NCBI GenBank assembly: GCA_964020085.1
Contig: CAXHUQ010001475.1
Span: 238,622 to 302,621, forward strand
Source of the DNA: Micromussa lordhowensis
Taxonomy: Eukaryota; Cnidaria; Anthozoa; Scleractinia; Lobophylliidae
DNA: 64,000 bases
Direction of reading: 5' to 3'
Below the pieces are notes generated by a model. That model made no database searches. It was not told where the DNA came from and saw only the letters and a program-made list of their open reading frames with translations. How positions within the stretch are numbered: position 1 is the stretch's first letter; each line of letters starts with the position of its first letter. The translations under genes and the position numbers were made by a program. Shown here piece after piece: positions 1 through 61,961 of this stretch.

Positions 1-300
1 AAAATATTCCTAGGAATTCCTAAGAATTCCTAGGAATTCCTAGGAATCATAGGTGTGAATTTTCACGGTAATTCGGACTTGGAATTCCTAGGAATTCCTA
101 GGAATTCCAAGTTTACTTAGTACTGACTTGGTAATCCTAGGAATTCCTAGGAATTCCAAGTCAGATAAACCTTACCTTAAGAATTCCTAAAAATTCCCAA
201 ATATTCCTAGGAATTTCTGGGAATAACTTGGAATCCTCAAGATATTTTAGAATAGCTTGGAATTTTTAGGAATATCTGAGAAAAACTCGGAATTTGTTAT
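1..300. repeat. Left subterminal palindromic repeat array (GGAATTCC motif)
   Basis: Seven exact GGAATTCC copies lie between 13 and 157, mostly as CTAGGAATTCCTAG or TTGGAATTCCAA, followed by degenerate relatives up to about 300. A related array is at 14,076-14,335. The segment 254-282 matches 14,208-14,236 in inverted orientation with about two mismatches in 29 bases. This layout fits subterminal repeats of a DNA transposon. The true terminus is not visible and may lie before base 1. Confidence 0.7.
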
Positions 301-1368
301 AATCAATGCAGGAAACCAAATTATGTTTAGCAATGATCAGCATTTTAATAACAAAATGTTAGTCATTCAGATTCAGTCCAAACAGGTTTAAAAAAAAACT
401 TTAATTACATTGTTTGTTTTTAAATGTACACTCACATTTAAAAGTAATAATAAATTGTCTTGTTCTTGTAAAAAAATTGTACAGATTTGTGAAATCTTGG
501 CTGTTCTTCAACATTAATTTTATTTGGTGATCTACTATGTACACAGTCATATAATTGTTATATAAAACGTACATAATGGCATAGTTATGATTGCATATTG
601 CCAATGAATGGAGCACTATCACGAGCTATACTAAAACAAGTCAAAAGGCAGGGAAACATTACTGAAAACCAAAATTGGTCATAGCTTTTTTGAAATGGCT
701 TAATACTAGTCCATTGAAGAGTTACAATTAAGGGGACTGTTCACAATAAGCTTTGAGTTTAGCAGACACAAGGTTTTGGTTTTAAATTAAAAAGTCTGAC
801 AAGTGTTCTCATTTTCTGCCCTTCTGTCATTTAACTGCTAGAAATATCTTATATACACATTTAATATCTTCATTCTCATGTTCTAGACACACAAGCAAAT
901 TATGAAAATCCCTGTGATAGTGCCCCTCTAACTTAAAAAAACTTGTTTGATTAATTAGTGATTTCTATATTCAACTCCCAATTATTTTAAAATTTGTCAT
1001 GAAAAAATTTAAATGTGGCTAAATGTAATTTAGGCGAAGTTAAACTTGAGCGAATTGGCCTGCGGTTGTGACCTATTGCAGTACGTGACATGCGGGGCGG
1101 CCCTTAGGAGAGTTGCAGGGTCTCTTTGGGGACTTGTAGCTAAATTTATATTGCATTGTTTGCTTTGCTTGCTGATCGTAGCGGATCAATTGGTGCCGGT
1201 TAGTGGCCGCTTTAGGGGTGGTTCCCGCTTCCAGGGTTGCCGTGGATACCTCCTCTCTGCTTGTTGCATCTGGCCACCCACTAACCCTTCAGGCACCAGC
1301 TCCCAAGCTCATCACTAGCGATGAGTTTAAACAGAAAAATCAAGAAAGGATGAGAGGAAAGCAATAAC
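301..1368. other. Non-coding stretch with a GC-richer block
   Basis: Bases 301-1,030 are AT-rich and I see no gene in them. Bases 1,040-1,318 are clearly GC-richer and carry a 90-codon plus-strand ORF of unconvincing composition (low complexity, no recognisable domain). The block may be a SINE-like insertion or 3-prime flank of the BEN-like gene, which is transcribed toward it. Confidence 0.35.
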
Positions 1369-4300
1369 TTAGCTAAGGCTCTGCTTTTTTCGGAATTGTC
1401 CACGGAGCTTTCTCTGCTGCCCCCGGATGAAATTGTCCACTTCCCCTCTTTTACAGTCATATCTCTTTTCCATAACACCTAAAAATAAGTAAAGAAATAA
1501 TAATAATTAAAATATATGTAAGTAGAATGTTTTGTTTGTGATGAATTTTCAAGGATGTCAAACAGAGGGGTAGGGCTGCACTATTGCCTTATTTTGTCCC
1601 TCTTTCATTAATTCAAAGCAAAAAGGTTTTTTTTTCTTGGATTCACTACATTCAAGCATTGCAGTATTTTAACCTTCTAAGCGCAAAATTTCCTCAAACT
1701 AATAGTACAACTTACAGTAAATCAAGTCCACCTTTTCTCTGTCCAGGGCAATACCTTCACCACCTGATACTGTAACTCTTCCTTTGAGAGAGGATTGCCT
1801 TACTTCATCAGTAGTAAACAACTGATAGAGTAAGACTTTCAATCCCTCAAGGGGTTTTGTTGTATTTTTTATCATAGCAAGATGGGTCGTCTGCAAGAAA
1901 TAAAAATAAAATCCATACTAAGTTACTGTAGTGATCCCTTTTGTTTACTGATTGTATGACACAGTCATTTCAATTAACACTGCTGGATCAAAGCTCTAAG
2001 CCAGACGATATTGAAAGGTTTTATTGGTGGTAGGCTGTCCTGCAGTTTAATAAGAATGAGATATAAAAGGTTACCAATGTGATTTTGTACATTGTCCTTT
2101 CCTCTCTTCAGACCACCCATGTTATGTTGAACCAAGCTATTTTAGCCTTATTGAATTCTAGAATATTTTTTCAAACTCAAGCCTATGTGCATGACTTTGT
2201 AGCAGAACAAGTGAGAGAGTAGGTTCTGGGTATTTTCTGAAAAAAATTTATATTAGTTTAAAAGGAATCTACAAGTTTGTATTTTTTGAATGATTATGTA
2301 AGCTGCAAGTCCAAAGTTAGTGGACTTTCAAAGTTACCTCAGGCTCTTCAGTATTCAAGGCTCCTGCAGCTTGAGGACTGGAATTATTTGAGCTTCCCTA
2401 AAGAAATAAAGAGTAAAATAATAATTCACACACTGTTAAACTGCTTTTCAAAGTATTGTGAGAATAAAGGTTCATTTCATTTTTGTGTAGACTCAAAAGA
2501 CAAAGCTCCATGACCAAATAAAAAAAGCTCCACTCAAATAGCAATAATGCATGCCCATCCAAAATGCAAATGCTTATTATAACAGGGCTGAGAAAAGAAA
2601 AACAATGAATATTTTGGGATCACAAACTTTGTTTACCTTGGGGTCCTTTTTCTTAGTGAGGTTTGTTATAGAAAGCCATTGTAAAACCAACAGTCAGAAA
2701 GTGACTTGTCTAATGGAAAAATCCACAACTACTAGACCAGTAGTTGTATATTTTCCCATAGACAAGCCACTTTCTCTGTTAATTTTTCAATAGTTTTAGA
2801 CAAGTTATTTCTTAGCCCTGTGGGTATAAGTGGCAATGTTAAGATATAAAATTCTCCCTGCTTGTTAGGATTAACCCAGCATGATGTTATTGTTTAGTGT
2901 GCAATCTTCTTTCTTTACCTTCAACTCCCTCACAGTCTTTTTCAGATGTTTGACTTCTGCTCGAAGACCCTCCACGTCTGCCTTAAGCTCCTCAAACTGT
3001 TGGGTGAAGTGTGAAGTGAACGAGTCCCATTCACGACGTACTTCAGTGGATGAAGTTGTCGTGTCAAGATCTTCTATATTTAAATCCTCCTCCAGCAGTG
3101 ATGTGAAGCTGGTGCTGTTCATTTGGTGATGGTGTGAAAGAGGTGTATTTGTGTAAGGGGTTTGTGACAGGGGAGGCATGTTAAATGGTGGTGGCGTGTT
3201 GAATGTGCTTTGTATGGGTGTTGTAGGTTGTGTGTTTAATGGTGTGATGCCATGGCAGTAAGCAGTGGGTGTTGCTGTAGATTTGTAAGTTGATGGCAAA
3301 GTTTGCGATGGAGTATAAGTGCGAGGGTTAATGGCATGAGTGTGTGTCATGGGAGATGGTTTGTGTACGGATAGGGGTGGTTGTGATGGTGTGACTGTGT
3401 GAGAAATTGATGTGATAGTGTGTGTGGCATGAACAAGTGATTGTGACAGCGATTGTGCTGATGCGTTATCACTGCTATCAACAAGAATGATATCTGGTTC
3501 TGCATTTCTTCTCTCCAGTATGTTTTTAACTCTGTCTTGTTGTACAGACTTTTGCAACTAGGAAAAGAAAAGGTCAACTTTTTTACTTACTTTATATGAA
3601 CCATTGCATAGATTACTTTGAATTGTAAGCAGAGAGGGTCACAAATTGGAATTGATGAAGAATTTGAAAGAGGTGTAAAATACTGGTGCCACTAAAATTG
3701 CCTATCAAAAGGTTATCTTATAGGAACTCTTACTGTAACTACATACACCATACAATTTACAACCAATTACCTTCTTTCTTTGGAGCTCGTTTTCCTTTTC
3801 TTCATCAGTTTCTGCAAAACAAAACACTGTCAAAGACAGAAGGTACAGAATTTCATACTAATTTAATGCTACCCTTTTTAAAATTGATCCAAGGCAATAT
3901 TTACTGCAGATTCAGTGAAATACATGTGGTGTGGACTGCGTTATTACTTAACTAACCCTTCGCTTTCTTGTCCATTGTTTTTTTCTTTTTTGAGGGGGGT
4001 TGCTTATCAGCTGTAAAATAAATTGCATCAGATATGAAATAGCAGAACTTCACAAAGGTCACAAATTGTGAGGTCTTACTTGCAAAAAAAAACCAAAAGC
4101 ATGGAGTAAGAAAACTATTTAAACCAAGATGTTACGCAGGAAGTAAAAATCTTCAGAACAAATCAATTAATCAGTAGAAAAAGTGATACTAATACTGGAA
4201 ATATTTCGGGGAAACTTACCTCTAACATCTCTTCTATCATCTGTTGGAACTTTGTTCCCCTGTTCCTCTTCACTAGCATCTAAGTGTAGAAGTAAAGATT

Positions 4301-6058
4301 TGACATGAATGTTTAAGGTCAAGTTTAAACAAACCGATTATCTATTCTTTTTTTAGTTACGGTATATGTATTGTGTAGGTTGATTTTGTGAATATAATTT
4401 TTCCCTATATTATTAAGCAGATCACACACTGTTGAATGGGCTAAATAAAGTATTATTACTGAATAAAACTTAATGTTTTGACAATGATAAACCTTTTACA
4501 TTCAACATTTGTTATGATTTACCTTCTTGCGTCCCTTCATTTTCCCTTACTTTTTTGGACGGTTTTCGTTGTCTTTTGCCTGTGGTGTCTGTAAAGATAA
4601 CATGGCAGTTTTTATTATCACTCCAGAAGTATGTTGCATTATTTTTCTAATAATGCACAAAAATAGCCTTGTGAACAATTCAGGTATAACTTTACCTTTG
4701 GCATTAGTGTCATTAGTTTGAGTAGTTGTCTTCACCAAGCTTGCCTCGTACTCAAGTGCCTTTACCTTCGTTCCTAATAAGAATAAGAACTTAAGTTGCA
4801 TACTTGTACTAGGTGTAGCATGGACAGTCTTCTCTCAGATTCGAATCAAATTAGATGACGACCTTTGAACGAATGCGAGTCGTTTCGATCGAAGGTTGTT
4901 TCGATCGAAGACAAAAGTCAGTTCGATCGAAGAGTAAATGATGATAAAAACTACAGTTTTTCAAGTGTGTAAATAAAAATAATTAAGTTTCTTGCGTTGT
5001 GGATTGATTGTGCGATGTAATATGCGAGACGCGGAACTTTGGCAGTGGTTTTCAGTTGACGATCTCTTTTGTTGTCGGCGTTCGTGATCGGATGCTCGAT
5101 GCTCAATGAGCTCTTTGCTGGTGACTTTAACTTTATTTCTAACGGAAACGTACACCGAAAGAATCCTTGAAACCCGGGGTTTAAGAGTTTAAAATTTCTC
5201 TTGCTCGTGACGTGCGGAGTAAAATCGCTACGAGTCTTAATCGACACCGTCATTTCACCCAGAAGTAGAAGTAATGAACTAAAAGGAATTTAACTTTTCA
5301 CTTGTCCATAGAATTTGAAAAGAAAACTAAAGTTAACTCGCAAAGGTGTAAGCTAGCCCAGAACGAAGGTTGTGAAATGCCGTGAAAACGACGATTTGTT
5401 CTGAGCCCACGTTGAAACGAACAAGTTGTCACTTTCACTGATAACCGAGCGAAAAGAGATTAAACGCAATCTTCGATCGAATCGACTTTTATCGATCGAA
5501 ACGACCTTCGATCGAAACAACCTTCGATCGAAACGACCGGATTCCCTTTGAACCTCCCGCCATTTGGCATTTTTGTTCTGGGACGTTTAGGAATGTGGTC
5601 GATAATTTGCAACGATCCTGGCATAAACGTGAACTAATTTCACTCTAATATATTGGCCTTATAGGGGAAGTTTTTTGCCAGAAAATCGAGCGAACGTACA
5701 ACCGAAGATCCGAGCTAATCCAAAAGATTCAAAGTGAGGAGTTAACAGCGAATCCAAACGAAATCGATTGCATACAAAAACAAGGCATTATGCTTTTGTC
5801 CACTCAATGTTTTGAATTTCAGTGGTGTCACAATATCTATCCCAGTTTAGAGTAAGGAAAGAGTTAATTGGTATTTCAATACTCACCGAATACTTTCAGA
5901 ATATCCGCCTTATGCAGGGTAAGCCTTCCCTTACTCGTACCCGTCGATATATCAACCGTAATGCCTTCTTTTAGTTCGACGTCCTCGCCAACAACTTTCT
6001 TTTCATTGACCACACTCACGCTGTTCTCGTTCAGCCACTGAACAACAATGAAAACCAT
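1369..6058 (-). CDS. BEN-domain-like protein with coiled coil, 9 exons; candidate transposon accessory protein
   Basis: Exons (minus strand): 6058-5887, 4773-4696, 4588-4523, 4279-4220, 4010-3957, 3811-3771, 3557-2919, 1890-1716 and 1478-1369. All junctions have GT/AG and matching phases, giving 465 codons with the stop. The N-terminus (about 57 residues, starting MVFIVVQWLNE) resembles the leader of cnidarian BEN proteins. A Lys/Glu-rich linker follows, then a Ser/Thr/Pro/His-rich region (about 195-305) and a Leu/Lys/Glu heptad coiled coil (about 335-370). The C-terminal 95 residues fit a BEN domain (LLYQLFTTDEV, then a basic helix). BEN domains bind DNA in the nucleus. The gene is divergent from the Tnp2 transposase at 6,298, so a role like TnpA of En/Spm, binding subterminal repeats, is inferred. 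If the 2,919 donor is skipped, the ORF stops at 2,871 without the BEN part. Intron 1 holds a MITE. Confidence 0.7.
4843..5545. mobile_element. Foldback/MITE-like insertion with TTCGATCGAA repeats in intron 1 of the BEN-like gene
   Basis: Repeated TTCGATCGAA palindromes occur at about 4,885-4,935. They recur inverted at about 5,476-5,540 with the same spacing words (GTCGTTTCGATCGAAGGTTG on one side, its complement on the other). The interior is unique. A relative of the left arm lies at 47,635-47,735. The symmetrical arms suggest a non-autonomous DNA element; I could not define its target duplication. Confidence 0.55.
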
Positions 6059-6297
6059 TGTAACAAATTGAAAAGCGAAGTAAAAATAAATTCCACGCAC
6101 AAGCAATCAACCGAGAAGGTTCAAAAAGGGCGCCAAGAGAGAATATCACTTGAGCGTTTCTTCGAGAGCACGAGTATTGTCACGTGAAAGGATGGACCTT
6201 GTGATTGGCTCAGCACAGAGAATCCGCTGGATTACCCGAGTGCGGTGTGTAACTTAGCACCGCCATTACTGTCGTCGCGAAAAAGTAGTGTTGTGAC
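6059..6297. promoter_or_regulatory. Shared divergent promoter interval of the BEN-like and Tnp2-like genes
   Basis: Only 239 bp separate the two divergent start codons (6,058 minus and 6,298 plus). The interval holds a CACGTG E-box-type hexamer at 6,181-6,186 and an ATTGG (inverted CCAAT box) at 6,204-6,208. It is more GC-rich than the surroundings and has no obvious TATA box. Promoter function is inferred from position. Confidence 0.5.
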
Positions 6298-9200
6298 ATG
6301 GATTCAATGTCCGCTGGAAATGATGAGGTTAATCTGCTTTATCAGACCATTAACCATGAGAATGAAACATACTTTAGATGCTCTATTTGTTGCCGATCGT
6401 TGTCGAGGAAACAAAGAATCGAAAGTCACTTGAGTTCTGTCCACGGCAAAGGTAAATACTGTTCAACATTCATGCAGATGAACGTGTTGTGCTCCTGAAT
6501 ATCACTTTACAAAGTTTTAAATATTATTCTTGTTCTATAATAGTGGAATACAGCAAAAGAAAGTACAAGAAATACATCGATGATCCCAGTATTGCAGTTC
6601 CAAAGTCGACCCGGTATGACCATTTTAAAAGTTCAACTTGGCCTTCGCAGTCGACCTTGAGTTTGTCGATGAATACCTTGTCGATCCCTCAGTCTAGCTT
6701 CTTTTATACAAAAAAAGAGGTCGATCAATCGACATTACTTAGCCATGATAAAACATTGCTGCATGAGATAGAGACAACAACCAATGAATTTGCCGAGTCC
6801 CAAACCAGCTTGGAGGACGTTCCGAGTATTGTTGACAACGAAGCGGAAACGCAGCAATCTGATGAAACGGCTACGTGTGCTTCACGAGACTCAGAAAGCG
6901 ATTGTAGCGATTCGACTGAGAGCGACTTCGATTCACAAGCATTTGATTCTTTCTTGGAATCTGGAGATTCTGACAGTGATATCAATGACCAAGAGTCTGT
7001 TGATTTGTCTGACGATGAAGGGCCAAATGACAGTACCTTGCAAAAATCATTTTCAGCTCAGGAGGAAGCATGCATGGCGATACTTTCGTTAATTGCAAGA
7101 CACTGCATCACAACAGAGGCTGCGAAAGATGTCATTGATTTGTTGAAACTGCTTTGCCCAGGGAATGAATCATTGCAATCTCTAAGTTATGCAAATGTGC
7201 ATCAAGTGTGTGGAAATTGTTCTGTTTTCTTTTATGACATTTGTGAGAAGTGTCTTGGACTGTTTCCAGCAAATGTGGAAGATCAAGTGATGTGTTCTAC
7301 GCCAGGCTGTGATGGGTAATGTACTTATCAGAACGTTATGGATAGTGCACAATTTATGAATCTGTAAACATTTGTCTCTCAAACTTTTCTCCTTGCATCA
7401 TTGTTTCTCCAGATATTAACTTAATTAAACATCTGAGTTAATGAAATACAGTTTATTTTTCCTTCACCTTGGACAAGGTGAGTGGTGGTGTAGTGATGCA
7501 TTGAAGTCGGTATTGAGCAGACTGGGTATTTGCAGATTTAACTGGAGAGGAGTGGGGAGAGGGGGCCTTGCAATTAAGGACTAGCATCCTTTTGAGAGGG
7601 AGGAGATAAATTCTCAATGGACTAATGCAACGATAAACAAGATGGTCTTGTCTGATCAGCTATGTTACTTTCCTTGATGACAGGCTTTAACTTTGTCACC
7701 TTCTAGTACCTTACAGCTCTACCTTAATCTGTATAAGTTACCTAATATAAACCATCAAGAATGATATGGTAATCTTTCCTATTCAATAATGTTTTATTTT
7801 GCAGCCTAAGATACAAGGGTAGTATTCATCAGCAAGGGAAGAAACTACACAAAAATAGTTTTGTAACTGTGGACATATTCAATCAACTGAGGTCTTTGTT
7901 GGAACGTGAGTTTAACTTCAACACTATTTTCACTCTCATGGGAAATATGACCTTTTTTGTTATAAAACATTAAGGACCCAAAGACCACATACAATACACC
8001 ATTTGAAAGGCATTGATTGTGGTATGTCATAAATCATATTAATAGAGGTAGAGGAGGTCACTGTTCCAATTTAAAACCATCCAAAATGAGAAGAAGAAAA
8101 TGTTGAAAAAGATCTTACTCCATATATATATATATATTGGGTATACCCTTGGCATAATTTGCATTTGTGGCTTGTTGTCAGGCATAAACTTGACCTTCAA
8201 ATTAAAAGAGGAAAAAGATGCAAAAGTTGTAGGGGGTGGTTAAGCAGGTCTCATGTAAGAGGGGGTATGATTTGATGCATGTAATGGCATCAATGTCATA
8301 TGGAACTCTTGGGAGTTTGGGTTCACAATGAACACAATTCCTGAGTGGGCCGTAAAAGAAAACTTACAGCCATTTATTTTTATGACATTGCCACTCTTAG
8401 ATCATAATGATTGGTGTCATAATTATTATTGTGCAAAGAGGTTACTGTTTGACCAGTAATTAAACATGAATAAACTCTGTTTACAGAAAGCAATAATTAA
8501 TTGTTTTACATCTTTAATTTTCTTTGCATATGAAGGAAAAGGAGTCTGGCAAACCATTCAGGCAAGAATCAATCAACGTGGAAAATCAGTCATCACAGAC
8601 ATAATTGATGGGAAATTTTATATAAGATTATGTGAACCTGGACAGTTCCTGAATAACAAATCCAACATAAGTTTCATCTTCAACACGGATGGGGCACCTT
8701 TATACTCCTCCTCAAGTATATCTCTCTGGCCTGTGTTTTTGGCAATTAATGAGCTTCCATCTCCAGACAGGTATAACATAGTTTAATTAATTTCATTCTA
8801 TCATGTCAATGTCAATGTTAAATCACTTTCCATTTACCTAAAACTATACATGACTAGAGACCTACAATAATAATTATTATTGCAGATCTCTAGTCACGTA
8901 TAGTCTTAGGTGAATGGATTCATACAACGTGTAACGACAATTAGTGTTGTTACGTTCTCACTTGTTACACATTGTGTGAATCAGAACAGTAACTTTTCTA
9001 TGTTCTTAAATCTTTTTCTGATTTAAATTTTTTATTAGGTTTTCAAAGACAAATATGATGCTTTGGGGGATCTGGCAAGGAAAAGGAAAGCCACCATTCA
9101 ATGCTTTCTTTGAGCCATTCACCACTCAAATGAACACACTGTACAAAGAAGGTGGGTGACAGGTGTTGGATCCATACATTTTACCATATGTAGCATTAAA

Positions 9201-12200
9201 AGGTACCGGTATTCAAAATATCAATTTTATATAGTATAACTGCTAATGTAATGATTAATTTTTGTTAATTTTGCAATTTCCACTAAATTTCCAATGGATC
9301 ATCCTTGGTATGTTTTTGTCACTTTTTTATTTAAGGATTAACCATTGAATTGCCAGAAGTATCGCAAACGATAGTTGTGAAAGCTGCTGTATTGCTTGGC
9401 TCAACTGATTTGCAAGGGAAGGCATATCTTTTATATATGACTCAACATAATGGTGAAAGCGGTTGTCTCACATGTGAAGAGAGTGGATTTGTAGCCGCTC
9501 AAGGCAAAGGGCATACCAGATGCTACCCATACAGGTCTCCAACTGAAAGGGCTCCTAAAAGAAATACAGAAACATTTCTGGCAAATGCTGTGGAAGCAAA
9601 TCAGACAGGAAAGAAGGTGAAGTTAGACAAATTGGTTATCAAATAATTTATCCACAATCCACTTTTAATAAAGTTTCTGCTAAATGCTCAATGCTGAATA
9701 TCTGTTTTAGTTTTGCTCATAGTTTGAATGTTGGATGTTCATATATTGAGTAGGTTTTATGGTTGCCTGACAGCACCAGCATCCTTTTTAACACCTTCTT
9801 AATCTGATCATTGCTTACATTGACAAAGTATAACTTCGTTAGGTTGCTGGATTGTTTGATGTAACTTGCCTGGCCTTTATGCCTTGGTTTGATGTTGTTC
9901 TGGGGATGGTCCCTGACTACATGCATGGATGTTTGTTGGGCATAACCAAGACGCTTCTCTACAAATGGTTTTCTTCAACAAACCATAAGAAGGAATTTTT
10001 CATTGGTGGCCAGGTATGATTTCATTATCCAAACTGAAAATTTGCTCCGAGCTTAACAATAAAATTTAAAGTCTGGTTACATATTATGTGCATGTACCCC
10101 ACAAGTTAAATCTTCAGCTTTATAATTATCACACAGTCATCAGTTTTATAACTGTTTAACGCCTGCGTCGCATGTGGAGGTTGGGTGCCCAGGAACTTGG
10201 GGCCTGGAGCTGCCGACCCCAACCCAGGTAGCAAGAGCACCCCAAAAGCCTGCCCTACCCGCAACCAGCCACCAGCCCTGCCAGCCATACCTAGCCCCAT
10301 CCCAAGCACCCGTCACACAGAGCCAGAAGCTCCGTGGAAATAATGATAACAGTAGTAATCAATAATAATATTAACAACAATAGCAACAATAATAAGGTAA
10401 TAAAAACAAAAGGGAGAGGAGGGTGGGAGAAAACCCTAAAACACTCCGAAAACTGATCAGGTCTCCCCAAACACCAAGCACAGTAAAACTACGACCACAT
10501 GTAATGGCACACACATCTAATAGCAACAACAACCGCTGACCTCGCACCAGGCCCCCTACAGCAACACAAACCCTGACGACCGGAAACGTCACCACACGCC
10601 ACTAACAATGCTAACAAATGCCAATGCCACACTAACTACCACGTAACGTGCTCCTAGTCGTTAACTAAGTTAAATAAGTATATTTAACATCATTTTATTC
10701 TTGCTTCTGATAACACTTGTGTCATCCTCGTTCCACATTATTGGTGACCCCTTAAGAGGATTACTTTTCAGCAAGAACCATTTCATAATTTATCACAGAG
10801 GAATTCAGTACTTCGTTTTAATGCACATAGTCTACTCTTTTATGCACATGTAGATCAAAAAAATTAACAAACGCATTCTTCAAATGCGACCTCCGGATGT
10901 ATTGGCCCGACTTCCAAGAGACCTGGAGAAACATTTCAAGAACTTTAAAGGCAAGTGACTGTATCACTAAAGATTGTCAATTATAGAGATTTCTGTCATT
11001 ATTGTGTAGCAGCTTTAGCATCACAGTATTAACTTCTACTCAGTGTATTGTACAAGACAAAAAATCACATCACAAACTTCAATATACACTGTTTTTTAAT
11101 ATGTATATTTCTCTTTCTCTCTTTAGCTTCCGAGTTGCAATCCTGGCTTCTTTATTATGCTTTGCCATGTTTGGTTGGTTATCTGCCTGATAAATACCTT
11201 GAACATTTCGCTCGCTTCTCCGAAGCAATTTATTTACTTCTTGGTAGTGAGATCACTCCAACCCAGCTGCATCGGGCAAGGGACCTATTGGACAGGTTCT
11301 ACAAGGACTTTCAGGCCTTATACGGTATGACATGGTAGAATAAAATAACTAACTTAACTTACTCTACATGTAACATACTGCTTCTATTCACATGTGCAGT
11401 TATGCTGGATGACTAAGTGATACAGTTAAATTTCTCATAAGTAACATATCTTTTTTTTTAAGCTTTAAATGCATTTTTTATGCAATTGTTGCAGGGGATG
11501 GTAGTTGCGGTCTCAATGTGCACAATGCAGGTGCCCACCTGGCCGACTATGTTGAAGGTTGGGGGCCATTATGGGCTTGGTCGACATTCGGTTTTGAAGA
11601 CATGAATGGGACACTAATGGATTTTTGTCATGGCACTGGCAATGTTTGTAGACAGGTAAGCAGCCATAAAAATCTTGTTAGAAAATGTCATAGGCTCGAT
11701 TTCCGCCGCTAGGGGGAGGAGCGTGTGCTCCTCTCCCGAACAACGGCTGGTAATCGAGCCTAAAAATGCCATTGATATTGTTAATGACCAGGAGTACATG
11801 CACCATTAATAATGCTATTTTTAATTATACCTTCTCAACCAAAGGAGTCATGAAAGTTATTTGACTTGGAAGTTGGACCAAACAATTTTCTTTATGTACT
11901 TCTTTCTTGCCTGAAGATACCTCTGTTTTCATTCCCTTATTATGGCTTTTCCAACAAACAAAGTCTTTGTTAATATCATGGATTTTTTTTATATACTTGT
12001 ACTTAGTATATTAGATGCCCAACGTAATAATGCAATTTTCAGTTTAAGAATAATTATTGCATAGGACAGAGTACCATCTATTGAAGTATTAGACACAACT
12101 GAAATATTAGGCACAGGTGACATTACTCATGGACACAACTTTGTTATGTTATTTCAGTTGATTTGGATGTTGCATGCCCAGAGCCGCCTCATCAGTGAAG

Positions 12201-13537
12201 TTGAGCTAATTCCAGATGGAGCAATCAAGGAGTTCATAAAAAGAATGCTGATCACAAAACGAGGGTATAGTAACATGATTGTTTTGTTAAATGATGACTG
12301 TAATAAAGTTGAAAGTGCAACGTAAAGGCTCTACCCAAGCCAGTGTAGTTTGGCTGTTTGGTACTCGACTCCTGTTTCCTATAATGTACTAGAAAGGGAC
12401 TTTAGTATTGCTTTTCTCCCTCTGGATAGGATGCTTTTCCAGTACAGGCTATTTCCCCGCTTTGGACACTCAGGTTTCTCTGACAACTGTATATGCTAAA
12501 TTGAGACAGGAAATGTAAAAGTGTCCTGGCTTCCTACAAACACAGAGAGACAATATGTACAGCATCTTTCCTAAGAACACAGCTTCTCTGACTGCGAAAA
12601 TCTGAAGCACTGAGCATGACAAACATTAGGCCAACACATAGCTGAGATGAAGCTGAAAACTGACTTGAGAGAAAATTAATTTTCAGGATAAATTGACATA
12701 AATTGTTCCCAAGTGTACTTCAAGCCAGGGAAAAATGGCTTCAGTTACACACAAATTTATGAGTTATGGTACAACATGATTTACTTTATAGTATTATATG
12801 CTTAACAGGTTAAAGAACCTTAAGGAGGCTGAAGACTGTCAGGTTGCTGGTGGTGCAAAAAAGCTTACAGGATTACCTGTGCCTTTAATGGAGGAGATTT
12901 CACGTAGAATTGGACCTGGCAGCTTTAAAATCTCAAGGATTGTCAAGAATGGACAAGTGTTTTTCAGTAGGGATTACACACGGATGGTAAAGAGAAATGC
13001 ATCGGTTGTCTTACTATCGAATGGAAGAGTTGGAGAAATTGATTTCTTCATTTGGAATAAGATGTCAGGCCGAATACTTGCAGCATATAAAGAAATAGAG
13101 CCGAACCTCGAAAAACCATTCTTCTTTGACGATTCTGGTTGTCATGTGCTAAGAATGAAACCACAAAGTTGAGCTTAGATTAATTATCATGTGTTAACAC
13201 CAACCTTAAATTTGTTTAAATTAAAAGTACTTGGAGCAAATTAATGAGTTTTAGATTGTTGAAAGCTACAGTTATGTTCATTTTTAACATTAGTTAATAA
13301 ACATTTTAGTGCCACACTGAAGTGTTTTTTGAAAACACCACATTACTGAATCTCTTCTACGTTAATGATACCTAAATACAGTTTTCTAATATTGTCATTT
13401 GTCTTTTTTTAAGCAACCAAGCTGTAATTCAACTGGCAGAAGTTACTGAACTTAGAGAGAAAGTGTTCTTTTTGGAAGGGAACAGTGACCAACCATGCAT
13501 TGTTCGCCTTCCAAACTTCAATGGAGTGTGTGGCTGA
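6298..13537 (+). CDS. Tnp2/CACTA-like transposase, 13 exons, apparently intact
   Basis: Exons: 6298-6451, 6544-7315, 7805-7905, 8536-8770, 9039-9151, 9336-9616, 9843-10013, 10854-10950, 11127-11324, 11495-11655, 12158-12264, 12809-13167 and 13422-13537. Phases agree at every junction and give 955 codons with the stop. Intron 8 uses a GC donor (AAAG|GCAAGT). An N-terminal C2H2 finger (C28, C31, H44, H49) is followed by an acidic Ser/Asp region and a Cys cluster (about 282-308, CGNC and CEKC). The Tnp2-type core (as in PF02992) has FNTDGAPLYSSSSISLWPVF around D394, VPDYMHGCLLGITK around D577 and STFGFEDMNG around E742; these are candidate DDE residues. Members cut and move DNA elements in the nucleus. 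The last donor (13,167) is weaker; without it the ORF stops at 13,172. It could also be a domesticated gene, but the repeats around it favour an element. Confidence 0.82.
8829..8920. repeat. Short foldback repeat in Tnp2 intron 4
   Basis: Two arms (ACTATACATGACTAGAGA and an imperfect complement ending CTTAGGTGAATGG) flank a short AATAATAATTATTATT-type centre. It would form a hairpin in RNA or DNA. It is probably a tiny MITE or hairpin relic. Confidence 0.5.
10151..10640. other. C-rich, G-poor insertion in Tnp2 intron 7
   Basis: The 840-bp intron 7 contains a block whose composition differs from its surroundings. It is GC-rich at 10,160-10,340 with many CCC/CCAGCC words. An AAT/AAC-rich stretch (10,340-10,400) follows, then a C- and A-rich tail to about 10,640. 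No open frame looks real. It resembles a retroposed or SINE-type insertion, but I found no target duplication. Confidence 0.35.
11692..11761. repeat. Compact hairpin in Tnp2 intron 10
   Basis: Outer arms AGGCTCGATT and AATCGAGCCT enclose an inner near-perfect stem (GGGGAGGAGC, loop GTGT, GCTCCTCTCCC). The whole is about 70 bp and GC-rich in an AT-rich intron. It could be a miniature element or a structured RNA hairpin. Confidence 0.5.
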
Positions 13538-14075
13538 AATAGGAGAAGGACCTAAGAAACCTCTCTGACAGTGTAAAATTCAGTCTTTGGGTGGACATCT
13601 ACATGTATATTCCATTTTTTATTTCAAACTATTATCAGGGGTTATCAAAGTATAAGAAGGTCTTCATAAATGAGTTTTCTTTAAAGTTAAAATAATATAA
13701 TCAGAGTGCATATGTTGTAACTGCATTGAAATTGAAAGTCGAATATGGTTGATTTTTTTCTAAATGGCTTAAACCATTAAACTATTTTACAGACTTGTTC
13801 ACATAGTTTTGAGTGTAGCTCTTATGTGAAAAAGTAATCAATGACAGTTAGCTTTGTTTTATTAAATATTAAATTCCCTTTGGTTAAATAGTTTGTTCTT
13901 ATGAATAACTGAGGTTACGCACTAACAATAATAATAATTATTGTAAGGTTGAAGCTGGTGAAAGTACACCAATACTTGAAAATTTACTTAAGTACTTTTT
14001 TCTAGTCCATACTATATGCATTTGGGCTAATCTTTGTTGAACTTTTTCTCTGTCATTTACAATAAAATCCTGATT

Positions 14076-14335
14076 CTCAAAGATTCCTAAGAATTCCAAG
14101 TCTTGTTTTCTAGCTCAGCAATTTTCAACTTGACTGTTCTCAGAAATTCTCAAAAATTCCCAAAGTTTCCTAGAAATTCTCAGTAATTCTCACTCTCATC
14201 ATTGCCATTCCCAGATATTCCAAAAAATTCCAAGCTAAAGCATTTGCTCTAATTTGCATGTCTTGGAATAATTTAGAATTCCTAGGAATTCCTAAGAATT
14301 CCTAGGAATTCCCAGTTCACTGGGAATTTGTTTCG
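14076..14335. repeat. Right subterminal repeat array (AATTCC/GAATTCC motif)
   Basis: About a dozen ATTCC/ATTCTC-type words occur, ending in two exact GGAATTCC copies (14,285 and 14,305) inside a phrase also found at 11-40. The inner part is inverted relative to the left array (14,208-14,236 versus 254-282). It begins just after an AATAAA at 14,061 downstream of the transposase gene. No clear terminal motif ends it. Confidence 0.65.
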
Positions 14336-14515
14336 CAAGGGCATGGCCACTTGGCAGAAGACAATACATGTAGGTGAAGATAAAATTACTTTCTGATGAC
14401 TATTTACTAATTATTATGGACTACTTTGAATTAACACAAACCTTACCTCTTTTTCTTTATGCAATGCTTTCTGCAACTGGTTGTTTTTTAATTCCCTTGT
14501 ACCCTGTGGCAAGTA

Positions 14516-16750
14516 CAGTACCGCCCAAATGTAAGTTACCACCTCTCGTCTCGTTTCTCGCGAGACGCGTCTCGTTTCTCTCGAGACGAGTCTCGTTTCT
14601 CTCGATACGAGTCTCGTTTCTCGCGAGAGTCACTGAACCGTTTAGTATGGAATATATTACTCGCGAGAGGTCGTTGTACTATCTATTGTATCAGAGATTT
14701 CCGTTTGCACTGTGTTGTCAAATCGTTGAAGTCGAAATTAAAACAGAAAGTTTGTTTGTTTTCAGCTTTATCGTACTGAATTTGCAATGCCTCCGAACGT
14801 CGGTCTAATGGGTAAACAATTATCTTCCTTGCCGTTCGAACGGCTCTTGCCGTGCGTTTGAAAAAAATTATTGCCGTTCGAACGGCTCTTGCCGTGCGTT
14901 CTAAAAAATCGCTAGCCGTTCGGACAATTCAAAATAATTATTTTGGGGCGTTCGTAAGGTGCGTCCTCAACTGTCTGCTATTCGGATGGCTTGATCGAGC
15001 TATCCGTTGCAATCTTGACTCTTAAGCCCCGGCGCGCTAAACGATCAAACATTTTCATCCAATGTCGTGTTTTTCAAACATAACTTGGCTAAACGGACAA
15101 ACAACTTGGCTCTCCAACAACTTGAACACAACTGAAACGAACGATTCCTTGATTGGCGTGAGCTGCTGTTTACATGCATGTTCTACAAAGTAAACGTATA
15201 GCCAAAGAAAATGATTCTCGCGCGTACCTACGAACAAACAAATTGTCGACCTTACTAGGTATACGGCCACCATTACACAAGAGGTCTTTTAAAGTTCTAA
15301 AGTGTAAGCCATACAAATTCTAAGCACTGTTGAAGTCATTCTTGGAGAGAGTTTTCGTTCGCGAACGAATCATTCGGTAGATTTTATCACACTTTTGGTC
15401 ACGTGCTCAAACCTGTGAATCGAGAGTCTCAAAATAACTTTACCGATTGAGAGAGAGATAAGGCCTTTCGCTTTTTGTTCGGTTGTAATTATTTTCATCA
15501 GTTTAGTAACGGTACATTTTTATCGGTTGGTTCTGAATTAGATACTGGGTTCGCTTTGTTTTGCTTTTTCGACATGGTGGAAATTTTATTGTTTACAAAA
15601 CATATTTACTGGGAAGTAGCTTTCTAGAGTAACCCAAATTTCAAAACAAGCAAGTTTCTGAGTCGGCGAGCACACGCAGAAGACTATACATGCATGCATG
15701 ACAAAAGCGCGACTTTTTCACGCATCAGTAAAGTTTTCAAGGCGTCACAACAATTTGTAGTTGATTCGCTGCTATGTGCTACAATCGAAAACAAGCTTGA
15801 AATCTATTTTGAAACGGCATTCTAGGAATATCTACGTACAAAGCGTGCGTGTGGTCGCTACAGCCGAACAAAAAAATCAATGTAAACATACAGGACTGTT
15901 GGCAAGTTTCTGACATATGCAAATTACGCTTTTTGCTGCCGGTCCGAAACGCAAAATTATTTGCCATCCTTTTCTTAAATAACCATTGACGCCATGCTTT
16001 TGGATATTAAAAGAAACAAGTTTCATTCAAAACTTACTGAGGTAATGACCAGCGTTCGATAAAACAAAGAACATTTCTCAATGTAAACGTGGCTAGACAT
16101 AGACGTGACGATGGCGCCACTCAAAAATAATTATTTTGAGATTGCGTTATTTTCATTAAAATTATTTAGAACACTGAAAACGGCTTTGCGAAAGCAGCGT
16201 TGTTTGTGTCAAAAGTTTCCGTTGTCAATTCCTATAAACACTTGGAAAATCTCTTGGTTTGAACGGCTGATTTTTTTTTTGCCCCACAAATCGGAGCCGT
16301 CTAGCGACGTTTGTATGTCTTGCTTCTGCTGTCTAGCCGTTCGGTATTCAAAAAAAAATTGCATCCATTCACCCGTTCGACTTAACCGTTCAAAAAATAT
16401 TGCATCCGTTCACCCGTTCGACTTTACCATTCGAAAAAAATTGCATCTGTTCACCCGTTCGACTTTACCGTTCGAAAAAATGTTGCATCCGTTCAGCCGT
16501 TCAACCGACGTTTCGAATGGCTTGTCTAGCCGTTTGTTATCCGTTCGCTTGCCGTGCGTTCGGCCATTCGAACGGATAATGCCGTTTGTACATTCATCTA
16601 AAGGCAAAGCGTTGGTACTTGCAGTGCACTCGCGAGAAACGAGAAACTTCTCGAGAGAAACGAGACTCATCTCGAGAGAAACGAGACACGTCTCGAGAGA
16701 AACGAGACGCGTCTCGCGAGACGGTGGTAACTTACATTTGAGCGGTACTG
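14516..16750. mobile_element. Non-autonomous TIR DNA element, 2.2 kb, TA-flanked
   Basis: The element begins CAGTACCGCCCAAATGTAAG and ends with its near-exact inverse (one mismatch in the first 20). TA lies on each side (14,514-14,515 and 16,751-16,752). Subterminal arrays of CGAGACGNNTCTCG-like words occupy 14,550-14,630 and 16,628-16,720. Inside them, GCCGTTCGAACGG-like words occur near both ends (14,830-14,920 and 16,530-16,590). A ~55-bp tandem repeat (16,340-16,500) creates a misleading 240-codon ORF. No transposase gene is present. The TA flanks and CAGT start fit a Tc1/mariner-type TIR, but this is not proven. Confidence 0.75.
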
Positions 16751-29255: not shown

Positions 29256-32200
29256 CTAGGTTACAAGCTCCTTGTCAATTAAAGGTTTCCATTTATTGTA
29301 ATAACGTTCATTTGAATTGGTCCTTACTGATATTTGTTTTTCGATTTCGGCCTTGCTTATCACTATTGTAAGATAAGAACAAAAATACAACGGTTCTTTA
29401 TTAATGCTACAACAGTATATGTAGTATTTCGCAATTAGTAAGAGGTGATTAGTTAATTTTAAAAAGCGGTCGTTTTCTATAATACCATACAATATTTTCA
29501 CGGTTGTTAATTCTAGTTTCGCTGCTGTTAGAGTCTCATGCCATTCCAGGAAGGTTTTCCAGAACTCTGTTACCACCGGACATGAAACAAGCATATGCTT
29601 TAGATCTTGTTTTGTTTTTAAGCATAAATAGCAAAGATCACTGCTTGCAAGTTTAGCTTTAAATAACTTGCTTTCAGTAAAAACTATATCATGTAAAGTC
29701 TTGTACTGGAACATAGCTAACTTCGTTTCTAAAGTGATGGAGAAGGCTATGTTAAAGTATCTGCTTATTTGGTCCGGTGGTAACCCATTGGCAATGAGGC
29801 GTTGTTTTACGGTTGGTTCACAAAACGTACATACGTATGCTTCACAAAACTGTTATGAATGACTTTGGTTGTTAACACTTTCAAGTTCTCCCATGGTTGT
29901 ATGAGATGTTCTGACAGTACACCTGTTTGTTTTATTGCGTTTTTATATTCTTGTGGAATAGCGTTTATTAGTCCATAAAAGGTCAAAAAATTTGTTTGCA
30001 ACTGATATCGAAGTTGAAATTCTTCATAGGTGAGGAAATCTAGATTCTGGTCTACAAGGTCTTTTACGGTGTGAACGCCTTTATCAAACCGAGTAAGGAA
30101 AAAGATCATCTTGGTATCAATTTTGATGTCTTGGTTATTCCATATAGTCGTTTTCTTTGTGTATGACATGTTATTACTCTGCATATCCTTAAACTCAAAC
30201 CAGTACTGTAGCATTCTCTCATAAAAAAAGTGGTAGCTCTTTGATGTTGAAATCCTTGCTGTTACAGTTACAGGTTGAGAGGAAGGTTAAGCCTCCCAAG
30301 TGTGATGTGGCTTCATTGGGACTAACCGTCCATGCCGAGTTTTCGCTCAGATGGAATCGCTTTATCCAAATGGACTTTAAGGCTTTGTTCATTAACGTAA
30401 AATCAATCATATTTAGGCCCCCGTTTTTGCGTTTGCCAATAATTGTGTTTTTTTAATTATGGCCATTTTGTTGTCCCAGATAAAATTGAAGGTGACTTTG
30501 TTTACCTGATCAGAGAAGTTTTTAGGGACTGGAAGCACGGATGCATTGTAAATGAGCTTTGAGAGGCCCATAGATTTAACAATGTTAACCTTGCCTAATA
30601 GCGTTAGGTTTCGTCTCTTCCAATTGTTTAAGGTCTTTTCCAAAACATCCAATTTTTCGTAGAAGTTAGGTTTTCCGCTAACCTTTTCCGAGTTGGAGAA
30701 GTGTATTCCTAAAGCAAAAACAGAGTCTTTCGGCCACTTAATGTTGAATGGGGTGTCTTCTCTGTTCTTCCATTTTCCCAACCACATTGCCTCTGACTTT
30801 GTGCGATTAATTTTTAATCCCGAGCATCTTTCGAACTTCTCCAGAAGGTCAAGCAAAACACTCATTGATGCAGGGTTTTTTAGAAAAACTGTAGTGTCAT
30901 CTGCGTACTGTGTGATTTTTATTTCGCGCGCTCCTACTCTGATGCCTTCGATTTTCGGATTTTTCTTAATCGCGAGTGCAAGAATTTCAATACCAATTAT
31001 GAAGAGTGTGCCTGATAGTGGGCAACCTTGTCTGACACCTCGTTCCAGATTGAAAAAATCAGAAGCAAAACCATTGTTTGTGACGCAGCTAGTAATGTTG
31101 CAATAGAATGTTTGTACCCAATTTTTGAAGTCAGGACCAAAATTAAGCTTGTCAAGAGCTTTAAAAAGGAAGTTCCATTCTATGGAATCAAATGCCTTCT
31201 CAAAGTCGAGGAAGATAGCAAGACCGGGGAGGTTTTTTGCTGCGGTGTAGCTAATAATATCACAAATGAGTCTCACATTCTCACCGATGTACCGTCCTTT
31301 AATATAGCCGGTTTGATCAGCGTTTATCACAAGCAGCAGAACGGCTTCCAGCCTTTTTGCGATTGCTTTCGTGGCAATTTTGTAGTCTGTGTTTAGGAGT
31401 GAGATAGGCCTTAGGTTGCCAAGGAGATTGGTCGGTTTGTCTTTTTTCGGTACTAGTGTTATGATACCTCTTGTTTGACAAATTGATAGTTGGCGTTTTT
31501 CAAAGCCATAATTTATGCTTTCAACAACGTTTTGTTTAACGTAATCCCAGAAGAATTTATTAAATTCGCATGTGAAGCCATCTGAGCCCGGGCTTTTACC
31601 ATTGTCCATGTGTTTTAAAGCTTGGTAGCACTCCTGCTCGGTTAGCACGCCTTCACATTTTTTAGATTGCTCTTCATTAAGAGGTGTTAACAGGTTGTTG
31701 TTAAAGAATATATCAAACTCGGAGTCATTGGGATTAACATTTCTAGTAGAGTATAGATTTTTGTAAAAGGTTTTTTCTTCTTCAAGTATTGTTTCTGCGT
31801 CGTCAGTTTCTTCACCGTTAGATAATTTTAGCTTTGAAATCTTTTTCCTTAAGAAGTTTTTTTCTAGATGGAGAAAGTACTTGGAATTTTTTTTTCCGTT
31901 CTCATACCATCGCGCCTTACTACGCAAAATCGTACCTTTTATTTTTTTGTTCGATAGTTTTTCTAATTTTGCCTTTAGTGTATAATACTCGTTCAGCAAA
32001 TTAAGGTCATTCCTCGAGGAACATAGTTTTTCTTGCAGATCGTTCAGTTTTATTAGTAGCTGATTTTCTTTGTCCTTCTGTGATCTAGCTTTTCTTTTGG
32101 AGTACTGCACTGTAAAGCTTCTGATTTCCATCTTGATGACATCCCATTTCAGGCCAAGATCTGAGACGTCCCTGTACTTTTCTATGAAGGCCGGAATGTT

Positions 32201-33031
32201 TTCACACATTTTTTTTACATATTCTTTATCTTCTAACAAGCTTGCGTTAAATTTCCAGAAACCAGGACCTGATTTTTTGCGTTGGTCGAACGATTGTATA
32301 TTCAACATAATAGCAGAGTGGTCTGAGAAAGGAGTGTGCATAATATTACTCTCTTTTGTTACGTAAACTAAATCAGCTGTGATTAGAAAAAAATCTAGTC
32401 GGCTCTGGGACTTGAATGCTTTGTCATGCCACGTAAATGACTGGGCTTTGGGATTTAATTCACGCCAAATCTCCGTGAGAGCGAAGTTAGAGCATAGGTT
32501 TTCGATTTCGTTTATGACAGTATGTTTGTTCGAACCCTGTTTCACACTTTTTCTGTCTATTGGCGTTAGCGCGCAATTGAAATCCCCTCCAATTATGAGG
32601 TTGCTATCTGAAAATCCGCGTAGAGTTTGGTTTAAATCTTGATAAAACTTGATTTGTTGTGGAATGTCATTTGGAGCGTATACATTGGCAAGAACAAGGT
32701 TTCGATTATCCAGTTTGATTTCCAAAATAATTGATCTTCCATTTTTGTCTTTGGTACTTCTCATCACCTCCAATTGATATCTGGGGTTAACAAGAATCAT
32801 TACACCTTTGCTATGGTTTGATCCGTGGCTGTAGAAGATATTTCCACCCCATTCCGATCGCCAGGTGTTTATAGATTGTTCGGTACTAAAGGTTTCTTGG
32901 AGAAAGTAGCAGTGAGCGGTCTGCCTATGAAGCCACTTAAAGATTTTCCTTCGCTTAATAGAATTATTTAAACCTCTTACGTTTAGGGAAATTATTTTAA
33001 AGTTAATTGATGAAATTTCGTGATCCATCAT
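29256..33031 (-). pseudogene. LINE ORF2: endonuclease-reverse transcriptase with three frameshifts
   Basis: The first 872 codons (33,031-30,413) are open. The endonuclease has ISLNVRGLNN, LQETF, GGDFNCAL, RLDFFLI and SDHSAIM (metal-binding and His residues present). The reverse transcriptase has RPISLLNTDYK, FLDFEKAFDSIEW, RGVRQGCPLS and YADDTTVFL. Reading continues in shifted frames through 30,410-30,219, 30,214-29,807 and about 29,790-29,256. That part holds a knuckle CYLC...H....C (DLCYLCLKTKQDLKHMLVSC). The breaks lie at T7 (30,448-30,454), A7 (30,223-30,229) and a four-base run (29,822-29,825), one base each. It nicks the target and primes reverse transcription of its own RNA. About 1,250 codons if continuous, normal for the family. 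Confidence 0.88.
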
Positions 33032-33291
33032 GCATTAAAGCAGTTACTAATTGACCTGAATTTCTTTGGACTTATCTTAAGCCTAGCTTGTCGTATTTGA
33101 CTCGCTTGCTGTAAGGCGTACCTGTATCTAAAAAAGTAGGATGTAAACACACAATATATGCAAGTGACAAACAAAGTGTTGTCGTCTCTTCCATAAATAA
33201 AAGGAAAGCACATACACAACAATAAGAACATGATGACACCTATTATGTAAAACGCTCCCGAGGGAGTGTTGTGGTTAGCCGGTGTATGCAA
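33028..33291 (-). CDS. Small hydrophobic ORF between LINE ORF1 and ORF2
   Basis: 87 codons with a strongly hydrophobic stretch (GAFYIIGVIMFLLLCMCFPF) near residues 12-31 and a basic C-terminus. Its TGA stop overlaps the ORF2 start as ATGA. Such overlaps allow reinitiation in some retroelements. It may alternatively be a chance ORF in the inter-ORF spacer, since L1-type elements do not usually encode a membrane protein here. Confidence 0.35.
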   Translation of the reverse strand: MHTPANHNTPSGAFYIIGVIMFLLLCMCFPFIYGRDDNTLFVTCIYCVFTSYFFRYRYALQQASQIRQARLKISPKKFRSISNCFNA

Positions 33292-33435
33292 ATTCGACTC
33301 TGTTTAGGTTGTTTAGAGCTTTATATGAAACTGTACAATGCTTTTTTTATTGATAAAGGCAATTGTATATAAGAGAAGAAACGAGGAATAAAGCTTTAGG
33401 GTAAAAGCATAGTTACAAGAGGCAGAACAGTAAAC

Positions 33436-34377
33436 TTACATTGTGATTTCAGTCTCCATGGGGCTCTCTTTTAAGCGTTCCGGAATGGTTCCACAGGTAA
33501 ATCTTTCTTCGTTTACAAAAAGATGTCGATCAATAACTTTGGAATTTAATCCAAGTGCTCTGGCTTTTTTCATTGCTTTGATCAAAATGCGACGTTCTTG
33601 TTGATTTGCTTTAGCATAGTCCTGCGTAATGTAAGCATCCTGATAGGTTGTGGAATTTTTAAGCTCTCTTTTCCTTGACCATACAAAGTCTCTGTCTTCG
33701 CGACACACAAATCTCGCAATAACTGGCCGCGTTTTTCCAACTGCAGGCTTTCCCACTCTGTGAACGGCATGGAATCGGATATTAGTGACATCTATTTTCA
33801 AATCGTTTTGTATTAGATTAATAATCATTCCTTTGCAATCTTCTCCGTAATCCTCTGGTAGATTCATGAATTTTAAGTTTTCGCGACGCGTGTAGTTCTC
33901 TAACGCAATGTTGTTTTCTCTTTCCACATTAAGAAGTAGCGATGTTTTCTGCAGTTCAGACTTCAGCTCGTCAATTTCCTTTTGTTGAGAGTCTTTGACA
34001 TCTTTATGGGCTTTCAGCTCGGCGGTATGATCTTCGATATACCCCCAGGCTTGTTCAAGAGATTTTTCAATGCCGCTGATGGTTGCTTTTAGACCATCCA
34101 AGTTTTCTTTTATTTCGTGGCGAAAGCAGTCCATGTCTGTCTGGAGTTGCTCTATTTTGTTCTCCAATCTATCGCCCAAAGATTGGATTGAATCGACAAT
34201 TTGTTTCAGGACATCATCAAGGGGGCCGCTGTGTTCTTTTCCGACCTCGTGTTGTTTGCCTGTTGACGTCGCCGCCATCTTGGGTTTCTTCAGGTCAGTC
34301 GACGGTGGGCTATAAGAGAAGGACCTTTCTGTTCTTTTCTTGCCTTTTTTCTTCATAAAAGGAAAGGCATTGACCAA
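33436..34377 (-). CDS. LINE ORF1 RNA-binding protein, intact
   Basis: 313 residues. A basic N-terminus precedes a long coiled coil (about 55-155; heptads in DRLENKIEQLQTD and ELKSELQKTS). Then comes an RRM-like segment (NYTRRENLKFMNLPE, about 162) and a C-terminal domain with VHRVG...RPVIARFVCREDR. This order matches L1-type ORF1 proteins, which trimerise and coat the element RNA in the cytoplasm. There are no stops. A possible in-frame start downstream exists at MAATSTGK, but the first ATG follows the 5-prime UTR directly. Confidence 0.85.
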   Translation of the reverse strand: MVNAFPFMKKKGKKRTERSFSYSPPSTDLKKPKMAATSTGKQHEVGKEHSGPLDDVLKQIVDSIQSLGDRLENKIEQLQTDMDCFRHEIKENLDGLKATISGIEKSLEQAWGYIEDHTAELKAHKDVKDSQQKEIDELKSELQKTSLLLNVERENNIALENYTRRENLKFMNLPEDYGEDCKGMIINLIQNDLKIDVTNIRFHAVHRVGKPAVGKTRPVIARFVCREDRDFVWSRKRELKNSTTYQDAYITQDYAKANQQERRILIKAMKKARALGLNSKVIDRHLFVNEERFTCGTIPERLKESPMETEITM

Positions 34378-34490
34378 TTCTTGAAGGTTTAGGTTGTTGT
34401 AAATGACATAATTACTCGAGAGTCGAATAGCCCGGCATATTCTAAGAGCTCTTGTAAACGTGACCGTCCGCCATTAACCCGTCACGCCTC

Positions 34491-56869: not shown

Positions 56870-58114
56870 CGCCCATTCTGAAATTCTCCCCATGGCGTCA
56901 GTAGCTGTAGCTCGTCTCGGTCTAGTTGATGTGAGTGGGGTACATTGTTGTTCAGGACAGTTTCATGATGCAATCCTTGGGACAGAGGGACTTGCGGTGA
57001 CTTCAAGAGGATACAGTTTGGAGACAGGTCGGTTGGCATATCTAGTACTTGTGCGAATGTGTGCCGCCCGAACAAAGCCATCACCTCCTCTAATCAGATC
57101 TTCTATAACTGCTAGCTTCCAGGATGACCTGGGACCCTCATCATAGACCAGCACAACATCTCCTGTCTTGATTGATTGCTCATTAGTCCCAGTTGTTCTG
57201 TGGAATTCGCGGAGAGGTCAGGTACTCGTGTCTCCATCTCTTCCAGAAGCATTCGAGGATATGGGCTTGTGCTGTTACACGTTGCCTCATGTCAGATGTA
57301 CTTCCATAGTCCAGATCAGATGGATCATCATTAGGGAAGTGATTCTTCTCCCGTTTAAGAGATGAGAAGGCGTTAACGGCTCTTTGTCTACACAATCACT
57401 TGATACATAAGTGATACGGCAATCATTTAGGACAGCCTCTACTTCAGTGACGAGCGTTTGGAGCTCTGTTAGGGTGATAGATGCCTTGCCAAGTGTTTTC
57501 TTAATGGCTCCTTTCGTTAGTCCAATGAGTCGCTCCCAGAAGCCTCTGTACCATGGAGCTTGTTTAGGGATAAATTTCCACTCAACACCTTGTCGGCTCA
57601 ACTGTTCCTTTAGTGAAGGAGACTGGAATAGGTCACTAAGTGTCTCTGAGGACGCAAGAAAGGTAGAGGCATTATCTGATATCATGTGATGTGGTAGAGA
57701 TCTGCGACTTGAGAATCGTCGAAAGGCTTGCAGAAAACTTTGCTCTGACAGGTCACTGACAACTTCCAGATGTACTGCCCTCGTTACAACACAGGTGAAC
57801 AGACAAATGTAGCTCTTGGTAGTGCCATTCTCTGATCGTACGTAAAGGGGTCCAGTAAAGTCTACTCCAGTTGCTGAAAATGGTATTGCTTCCTGGACTC
57901 TCAACTTAGGTAAGGGTGCGGGATCTGGAGCTCTGAAGGCCTTTCCTTGTACCTTCCGACAAGTCACACATCGACGAAGAAGTTTCCTTACATACTGTCG
58001 AATTGAAGTTATCCAGAATGTTTGACGTAGCATGGTCACTACCACGTTGACACCAGAGTGAAGTTGGGCTTCGAGCTGTGTCACCAGTGGAGAACTATCT
58101 CGCTGTCGGACCAC
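56870..58114 (-). pseudogene. BEL/Pao integrase and C-terminal domain
   Basis: 58,114-57,287 is open for 275 codons: a Cys pair (RRCVTCRK), then GVDFTGPLY, MISDNASTF and YRGFWERLIGLTK. These supply the D, D and E of the integrase catalytic triad. The frame shifts near 57,400. The DUF5641-like C-terminal domain then follows in pieces (FWKRWRHEYLTS at 57,260 and VYDEGPRSSWKLAVIEDL at 57,150, ending near 56,960). The integrase joins element cDNA to the host genome. The catalytic core is complete, the tail broken. Confidence 0.85.
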
Positions 58115-59098: not shown

Positions 59099-59126
59099 TC
59101 ATTCAATAAATCAATAGAGCTTCTCA

Positions 59127-60410: not shown

Positions 60411-60414
60411 TTAA

Positions 60415-61927: not shown

Positions 61928-61961
61928 ACTGCGTTGTATTATCCTGGTCCCGGCACGAAAA

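Follow-up and report, generated by a model that had tools for sequence, protein, structure and literature searches.

Genes of the element

The window analyzed here is a 64-kb stretch of the 580.8-Mb genome of the coral Micromussa lordhowensis (G000:C1280:238622-302621). At its left end lies a two-gene transposon, in which a BEN gene and a Tnp2 transposase gene diverge from a common central stretch and are enclosed by palindromic subterminal arrays. The BEN gene (1369-6058, minus strand) comprises 10 exons encoding 484 amino acids (aa), and the Tnp2 gene (6298-13172, plus strand) comprises 12 exons encoding 917 aa. An initial annotation of this DNA had also described two spliced genes with consistent phases, a description that our models retain, with its lengths of 464 and 954 codons revised. 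The 239-bp stretch that it placed between them is recovered as the gap from ATG to ATG (6059-6297), common to both genes.

The transposase matches Transposase_21 (PF02992) at 39.7 bits, against a cut-off of 28.6. One of its introns has a GC donor (after 10950), and a probable 13th exon on the plus strand (13414-13537) resembles the C-terminus of P0001. In the window copy, exon 12 is followed by TT at the donor position, where both sister copies read (elements B on C6 and C on C15, described below) have GT. Because of this difference, and because the exon so joined resembles the P0001 C-terminus, full transposase may not be produced from the window copy; the initial description of the element as intact is not supported. 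Two introns contain further structures: a long imperfect palindrome in a Tnp2 intron (8829-8918; 47-nt arms, 89%), possibly a small insertion, and, in the first BEN intron (4879-5537), a pair of perfect inverted repeats of 32 bp with TTCGATCGAA units, which looks like a small nested element.

Copies elsewhere in the genome

At least nine divergent BEN-Tnp2 elements (A-I) are present in this genome, the window element being A. A search with the BEN protein returned 47 exon rows, sorted into 17 loci: nine are elements A-I, one belongs to a second Tnp2 clade on C5, and seven others are mostly fragments. The corresponding Tnp2 search gave 51 rows, with 50 of 680 candidates scored, and at this depth the seven remaining BEN loci have no Tnp2 row nearby, their DNA not having been read for Tnp2. 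The genome lists 98 matches to PF02992, a minority of which had their BEN neighborhood examined.

Both searches identify the divergent pairs of elements B (C6, 16.25 Mb), D (C5, 15.45 Mb), E (C10, 12.71 Mb), and F (C5, 15.26 Mb). For G (C7, 15.91 Mb) and H (C10, 9.28 Mb), Tnp2 exons were found in the DNA read beside BEN; at I (C2, 39.24 Mb), this reading recovered two short Tnp2 exons only. Element C (C15, 20.91 Mb) is also a divergent pair, with 11.4 kb between termini and about 3 kb less than the window element on the Tnp2 side; exon 12 is the only Tnp2 exon listed for it. Exon rows of the window element match its own proteins at 82-99%, as the rows run over exon edges. Against this baseline, the rows of B and C match at 79-98%, making both near copies of A, those of D-F at 61-85%, and those of G-I at 33-79%.

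BEN domains also occur near two Tnp2 genes of the second clade, whose Tnp2 genes lie largely in one open frame. At loci on C5 and C3, a BEN domain is found on the opposite strand, 5-6 kb from Tnp2, and these two pieces score 29.1 and 29.7 bits, above the Pfam cut-off of 23.2; at a third locus, on C6, there is no BEN in the 2.2 kb read. The C5 locus was noticed through a weak BEN row, and therefore only C3 and C6 are independent picks, one of the two being positive.

Termini and target flanks

The element spans 14,403 bp, from 62 bp left of window base 1 to window base 14,341. Its left terminal repeat, CCCTTGCGAAATAA, begins at C1280:238560, in flanking DNA read beyond the window, and its partner at the right end (14328-14341) reads CCCTTGCGAAACAA inward; the terminal inverted repeats (TIRs) of the element are CCCTTGCGAA, about 14 bp with one mismatch. 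A candidate right terminus at 14324 was dropped once both termini were found. The CA that precedes the left end recurs after the right end. In the same genome, each of the 17 array ends read finishes at a terminus that differs from CCCTTGCGAAA at no more than two positions, and the TIR starts with CCC at every one of them. Where termini were forecast from distance alone, with no array evidence to guide the forecast (both ends of D and the left end of E), none was present.

Six elements were read at both ends. Their 2-bp flanks are identical in five (CA, TT, AA, GA, and CA) and unmatched in element G (TA vs. AA), while a 3-bp target duplication appears in none of the six. Extension to the left, which had been recommended as a check for TIRs and a duplication of 2-3 bp, yielded the TIRs and a 2-bp flank match. 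The motifs CACTA and TAGTG are absent from window positions 1-400 and 14000-14500.

Subterminal arrays

The left array (1-300) consists of GGAATTCC / TTCCTAGGAA palindromes with a 10-bp period and extends 62 bp further left, to the terminus; the right array occupies 14070-14324. As first annotated, the arrays lie outside both genes: GGAATTCC occurs nine times in the 64 kb, confined to 13-150 and 14285-14305. The first 20 kb contains all nine occurrences, whereas 200 dinucleotide shuffles average 0.365 and never exceed 3. Per 100 bp, TTCC/GGAA likewise occurs 8.7 and 5.7 times in the two arrays, vs. 0.84 and 0.90 times in two stretches elsewhere. The window contains eight perfect palindromes of at least 18 bp, six of them in the left array (the longest, of 36 bp, at 77-112) and none in the right.

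An inverted match of 29 bp between the arrays (254-282 and 14,208-14,236) had been reported previously. We see it as a 30-bp stretch (253-282, plus strand) that agrees at 28 of 30 positions with 14208-14237 inverted. Its score of 50 is reached in none of 500 shuffles (maximum 41), and we reject a chance origin, but the same pieces score up to 43 in direct orientation. Taken whole, the arrays score higher in direct (71) than in inverted (61) orientation, an effect of the palindromic motif, and their own orientation cannot be read from the comparison.

Across the genome, the array 18-mer GGAATTCCTAGGAATTCC has 47 sites, and its control has none. Seven BEN-Tnp2 elements (A, C, E, F, G, H, and I) account for 38 of these. 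On C7, four sites are about 6 kb away from a further BEN locus; on C2, another four, at C2:24.248 Mb, have a BEN fragment at a distance of 56 kb; C3 carries a single isolated site. A sample of 41 loci, totaling 216 kb with 26 kb of N, gave no array match. These distributions bear on whether the arrays might be satellites of independent origin, with the BEN and Tnp2 genes neighbors by chance. The motif is indeed a simple repeat of 10-bp period, and five of the 47 sites are away from any BEN row. But such an origin is contradicted by the 38 sites within elements and by the array-free sampled loci, as well as by the termini and flanks; we give it next to no probability and reject it. The arrays belong to the element.

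Together, the terminal repeats, the 2-bp flanks in five of six elements, the divergent copies, and the array 18-mers falling mostly within such elements bear out the two-gene transposon that the initial annotation had proposed. It had also named two outcomes that would speak against the proposal, namely Tnp2 copies devoid of BEN gene and arrays, and arrays that are independent satellites. Approached from the BEN and array side, this clade shows neither.

Array ends with a terminal repeat and no complete element shown alongside occur at G000 C2:24248246, C3:2721857, and C7:23507534, and are solo or interrupted copies.

The BEN protein

The BEN protein has an N-terminal part, a low-complexity middle, a coiled coil, and a C-terminal BEN domain, the last encoded by the final two exons (1890-1716 and 1478-1369). 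By sequence, its match to Pfam PF10523 falls short of the curated cut-off of 23.2 bits, at 17.7 for the whole protein and 21.4 for the domain alone. In Pfam, five relatives searched as whole proteins return no BEN up to E 10, and the isolated domains of four relatives give one weak match (13.7 bits, P0101). A sequence search of the PDB recovered no BEN match, and the best hit in a viral fold library was a poxvirus OPG067 protein, at E 0.13.

In the predicted model of the coral relative P0101, which is 51% identical to the window protein in alignment and 40% by BLASTP, the coiled coil and C-terminal domain are fairly confident, the whole being poorly predicted. The solved structures closest to this model are BEN domains, with the Insv-DNA complex first, and on this modeling the window protein is predicted to have a BEN fold. 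Its final helix contains a stretch that is invariant in five aligned sequences; in human BEN-DNA complexes, as described in PMC11472053, the final helix reads bases. Insv is described as binding CCAATTGG as a dimer and as forming multimers (PMC6317261).

Relatives of the BEN protein are few, at five matches in each of two partly overlapping searches, and those named are coral (Montipora, Desmophyllum, and a fragment in Acropora), all among the matches listed. No relative of BEN or Tnp2 was confirmed in viral_contigs or genome_contigs. This scarcity, and the existence of BEN as a host gene family in animals, might suggest a captured host gene carried as a passenger. However, the same divergent pair is kept in elements D-I, with exon matches at 33 to 85% identity to the window proteins, and BEN also lies near Tnp2 genes of the second clade; we regard passenger status as very improbable.

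Two further observations concern these relatives. A HECT-domain gene model of Acropora muricata, P0102, contains a piece of the BEN domain that is identical to the window at 34 of 45 positions. Desmophyllum pertusum has two BEN gene models, P0101 and P0104, on contigs that differ in length; their shared exons are nearly identical, reflecting recent copying or haplotype duplicates.

Relationship to known systems

The element belongs with the animal CACTA-related (TRC/EnSpm) transposons and not with plant CACTA, because its terminal CCC and 2-bp duplication match TRC, while CACTA ends and a 3-bp duplication are lacking. As described by DeMarco and others (PMC1636069), SmTRC1 and other animal TRC elements share with it a Transposase_21 domain, TIRs starting with CCC, and a 2-bp direct repeat at the ends, the latter reported for 7 of 14 SmTRC1 copies. 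The SmTRC1 TIR is longer, at 54 bp, and the parts of this source available to us mention neither a BEN gene nor such arrays, both of which are present here.

Plant CACTA elements such as maize En/Spm and soybean Tgmt resemble it in having a Tnp2-type transposase and subterminal repeats, which in Tgmt are reported to be asymmetric and palindromic (PMC2613891). They differ in their CACTA TIR and 3-bp duplication, where the element described here has a CCCTTGCGAA TIR and 2 bp. Their second element-encoded protein, TnpA, is described as binding the subterminal repeats and, in En/Spm, as needed for transposition (PMC2613891); it is derived from a single transcription unit by splicing (according to PMC1636069), whereas BEN is a separate, divergent gene. 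PIF/Harbinger elements offer another parallel, as two separate element-encoded proteins are reported to be needed for their movement (PMC2836001). The present element may have a similar need, and PIF/Harbinger belongs to another transposase superfamily. Drosophila Insv and Elba1 (Bsg25A) and human BEND6, all BEN-solo proteins, are the nearest folds to the P0101 model and share its coiled coil and C-terminal BEN domain. They are host regulators, and the BEN protein here is the product of a transposon gene. Insv, like the array reading suggested here, has a palindromic target, although its site is CCAATTGG and the array unit is GGAATTCC. The partner protein of PIF/Harbinger elements is Myb-like and, to our knowledge, TnpA and BEN are unrelated.

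The BEN gene is what is new in the element. In the parts of the open-access literature on BEN domains and transposons that were available, to which the search was confined, no transposon of this kind is described as carrying a BEN gene.

A possible role for BEN in end recognition

We consider it likely that, in this animal TRC/EnSpm-type transposon, Tnp2 cuts at the TIRs and the BEN protein binds the arrays in the manner of TnpA, pairing the ends or presenting them. A BEN dimer, joined through the coiled coil that immediately precedes the BEN domain, would bind the palindromes, which at 10-bp spacing would face one side of the helix. BEN multimers on both arrays could then pair the ends, or present and expose them to Tnp2, as TnpA does in maize En/Spm. 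BEN may also regulate the element. A TnpA-like, array-binding protein is a plausible part for BEN, given the modeled fold.

It is possible, though rather unlikely, that BEN is a regulator and no partner in transposition, binding the arrays to repress or un-silence the genes of its own element. Such control of an element's own genes, by repression or un-silencing, is ascribed to the VANC proteins found in VANDAL elements. The known BEN proteins are, as far as PMC6317261 and PMC11472053 describe them, mostly chromatin regulators, and the arrays lie about 0.5-1 kb past the 3' ends of both genes. Regulation at the arrays is less easily reconciled with the absence of any array motif between the two genes (the 239 bp contain no GGAATTCC, GAATTC, or GGAATT) or with arrays that abut the termini at all 17 ends read, a position that fits end recognition.

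Alternatively, array binding could fall to a host factor or to a C2H2-like finger in Tnp2, leaving BEN some other job. Such a finger is hinted at by an N-terminal C2H2 match in Tnp2, which is weak and below its cut-off at 14.1 bits. Against it, Tnp2 relatives are found in a hemichordate and in molluscs, where searches reaching close relatives, one of them limited to 8000 candidates, list no relative of this BEN among their matches, and a BEN protein acting as a dimer would be well matched to a palindromic site; we judge binding by Tnp2 or a host factor improbable.

An end-binding BEN protein would have wider implications. The CACTA partner proteins that read subterminal repeats are described as varying widely (PMC2613891). 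Here, the partner appears to come from BEN, a family known for chromatin regulators and with solved DNA complexes, so that bench experiments can address how the ends of an animal CACTA-type element are recognized. The element also gives a lead on the origin of BEN-solo regulators. It is conceivable, if doubtful, that BEN is a standing end-binding partner across a large animal CACTA-related branch, co-evolving with palindromic arrays, and that some host BEN-solo proteins whose binding sites are similar palindromes (Insv, Elba) could descend from transposon proteins of this sort.

Other features of the window

Beyond the element, the window contains two sets of minus-strand open frames identified by eye. 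Those at 30413-34473, of 873 and 345 aa, resemble ORF2 and ORF1, respectively, of a long interspersed element (LINE), and those at 57287-61975 resemble a BEL/Pao-type retrotransposon. Two 21-bp tandem arrays (14548-14628 and 16629-16721), about 2 kb apart, have the related units GTCTCGTTTCTC and GAGAAACGAGAC in apparently opposite orientation.
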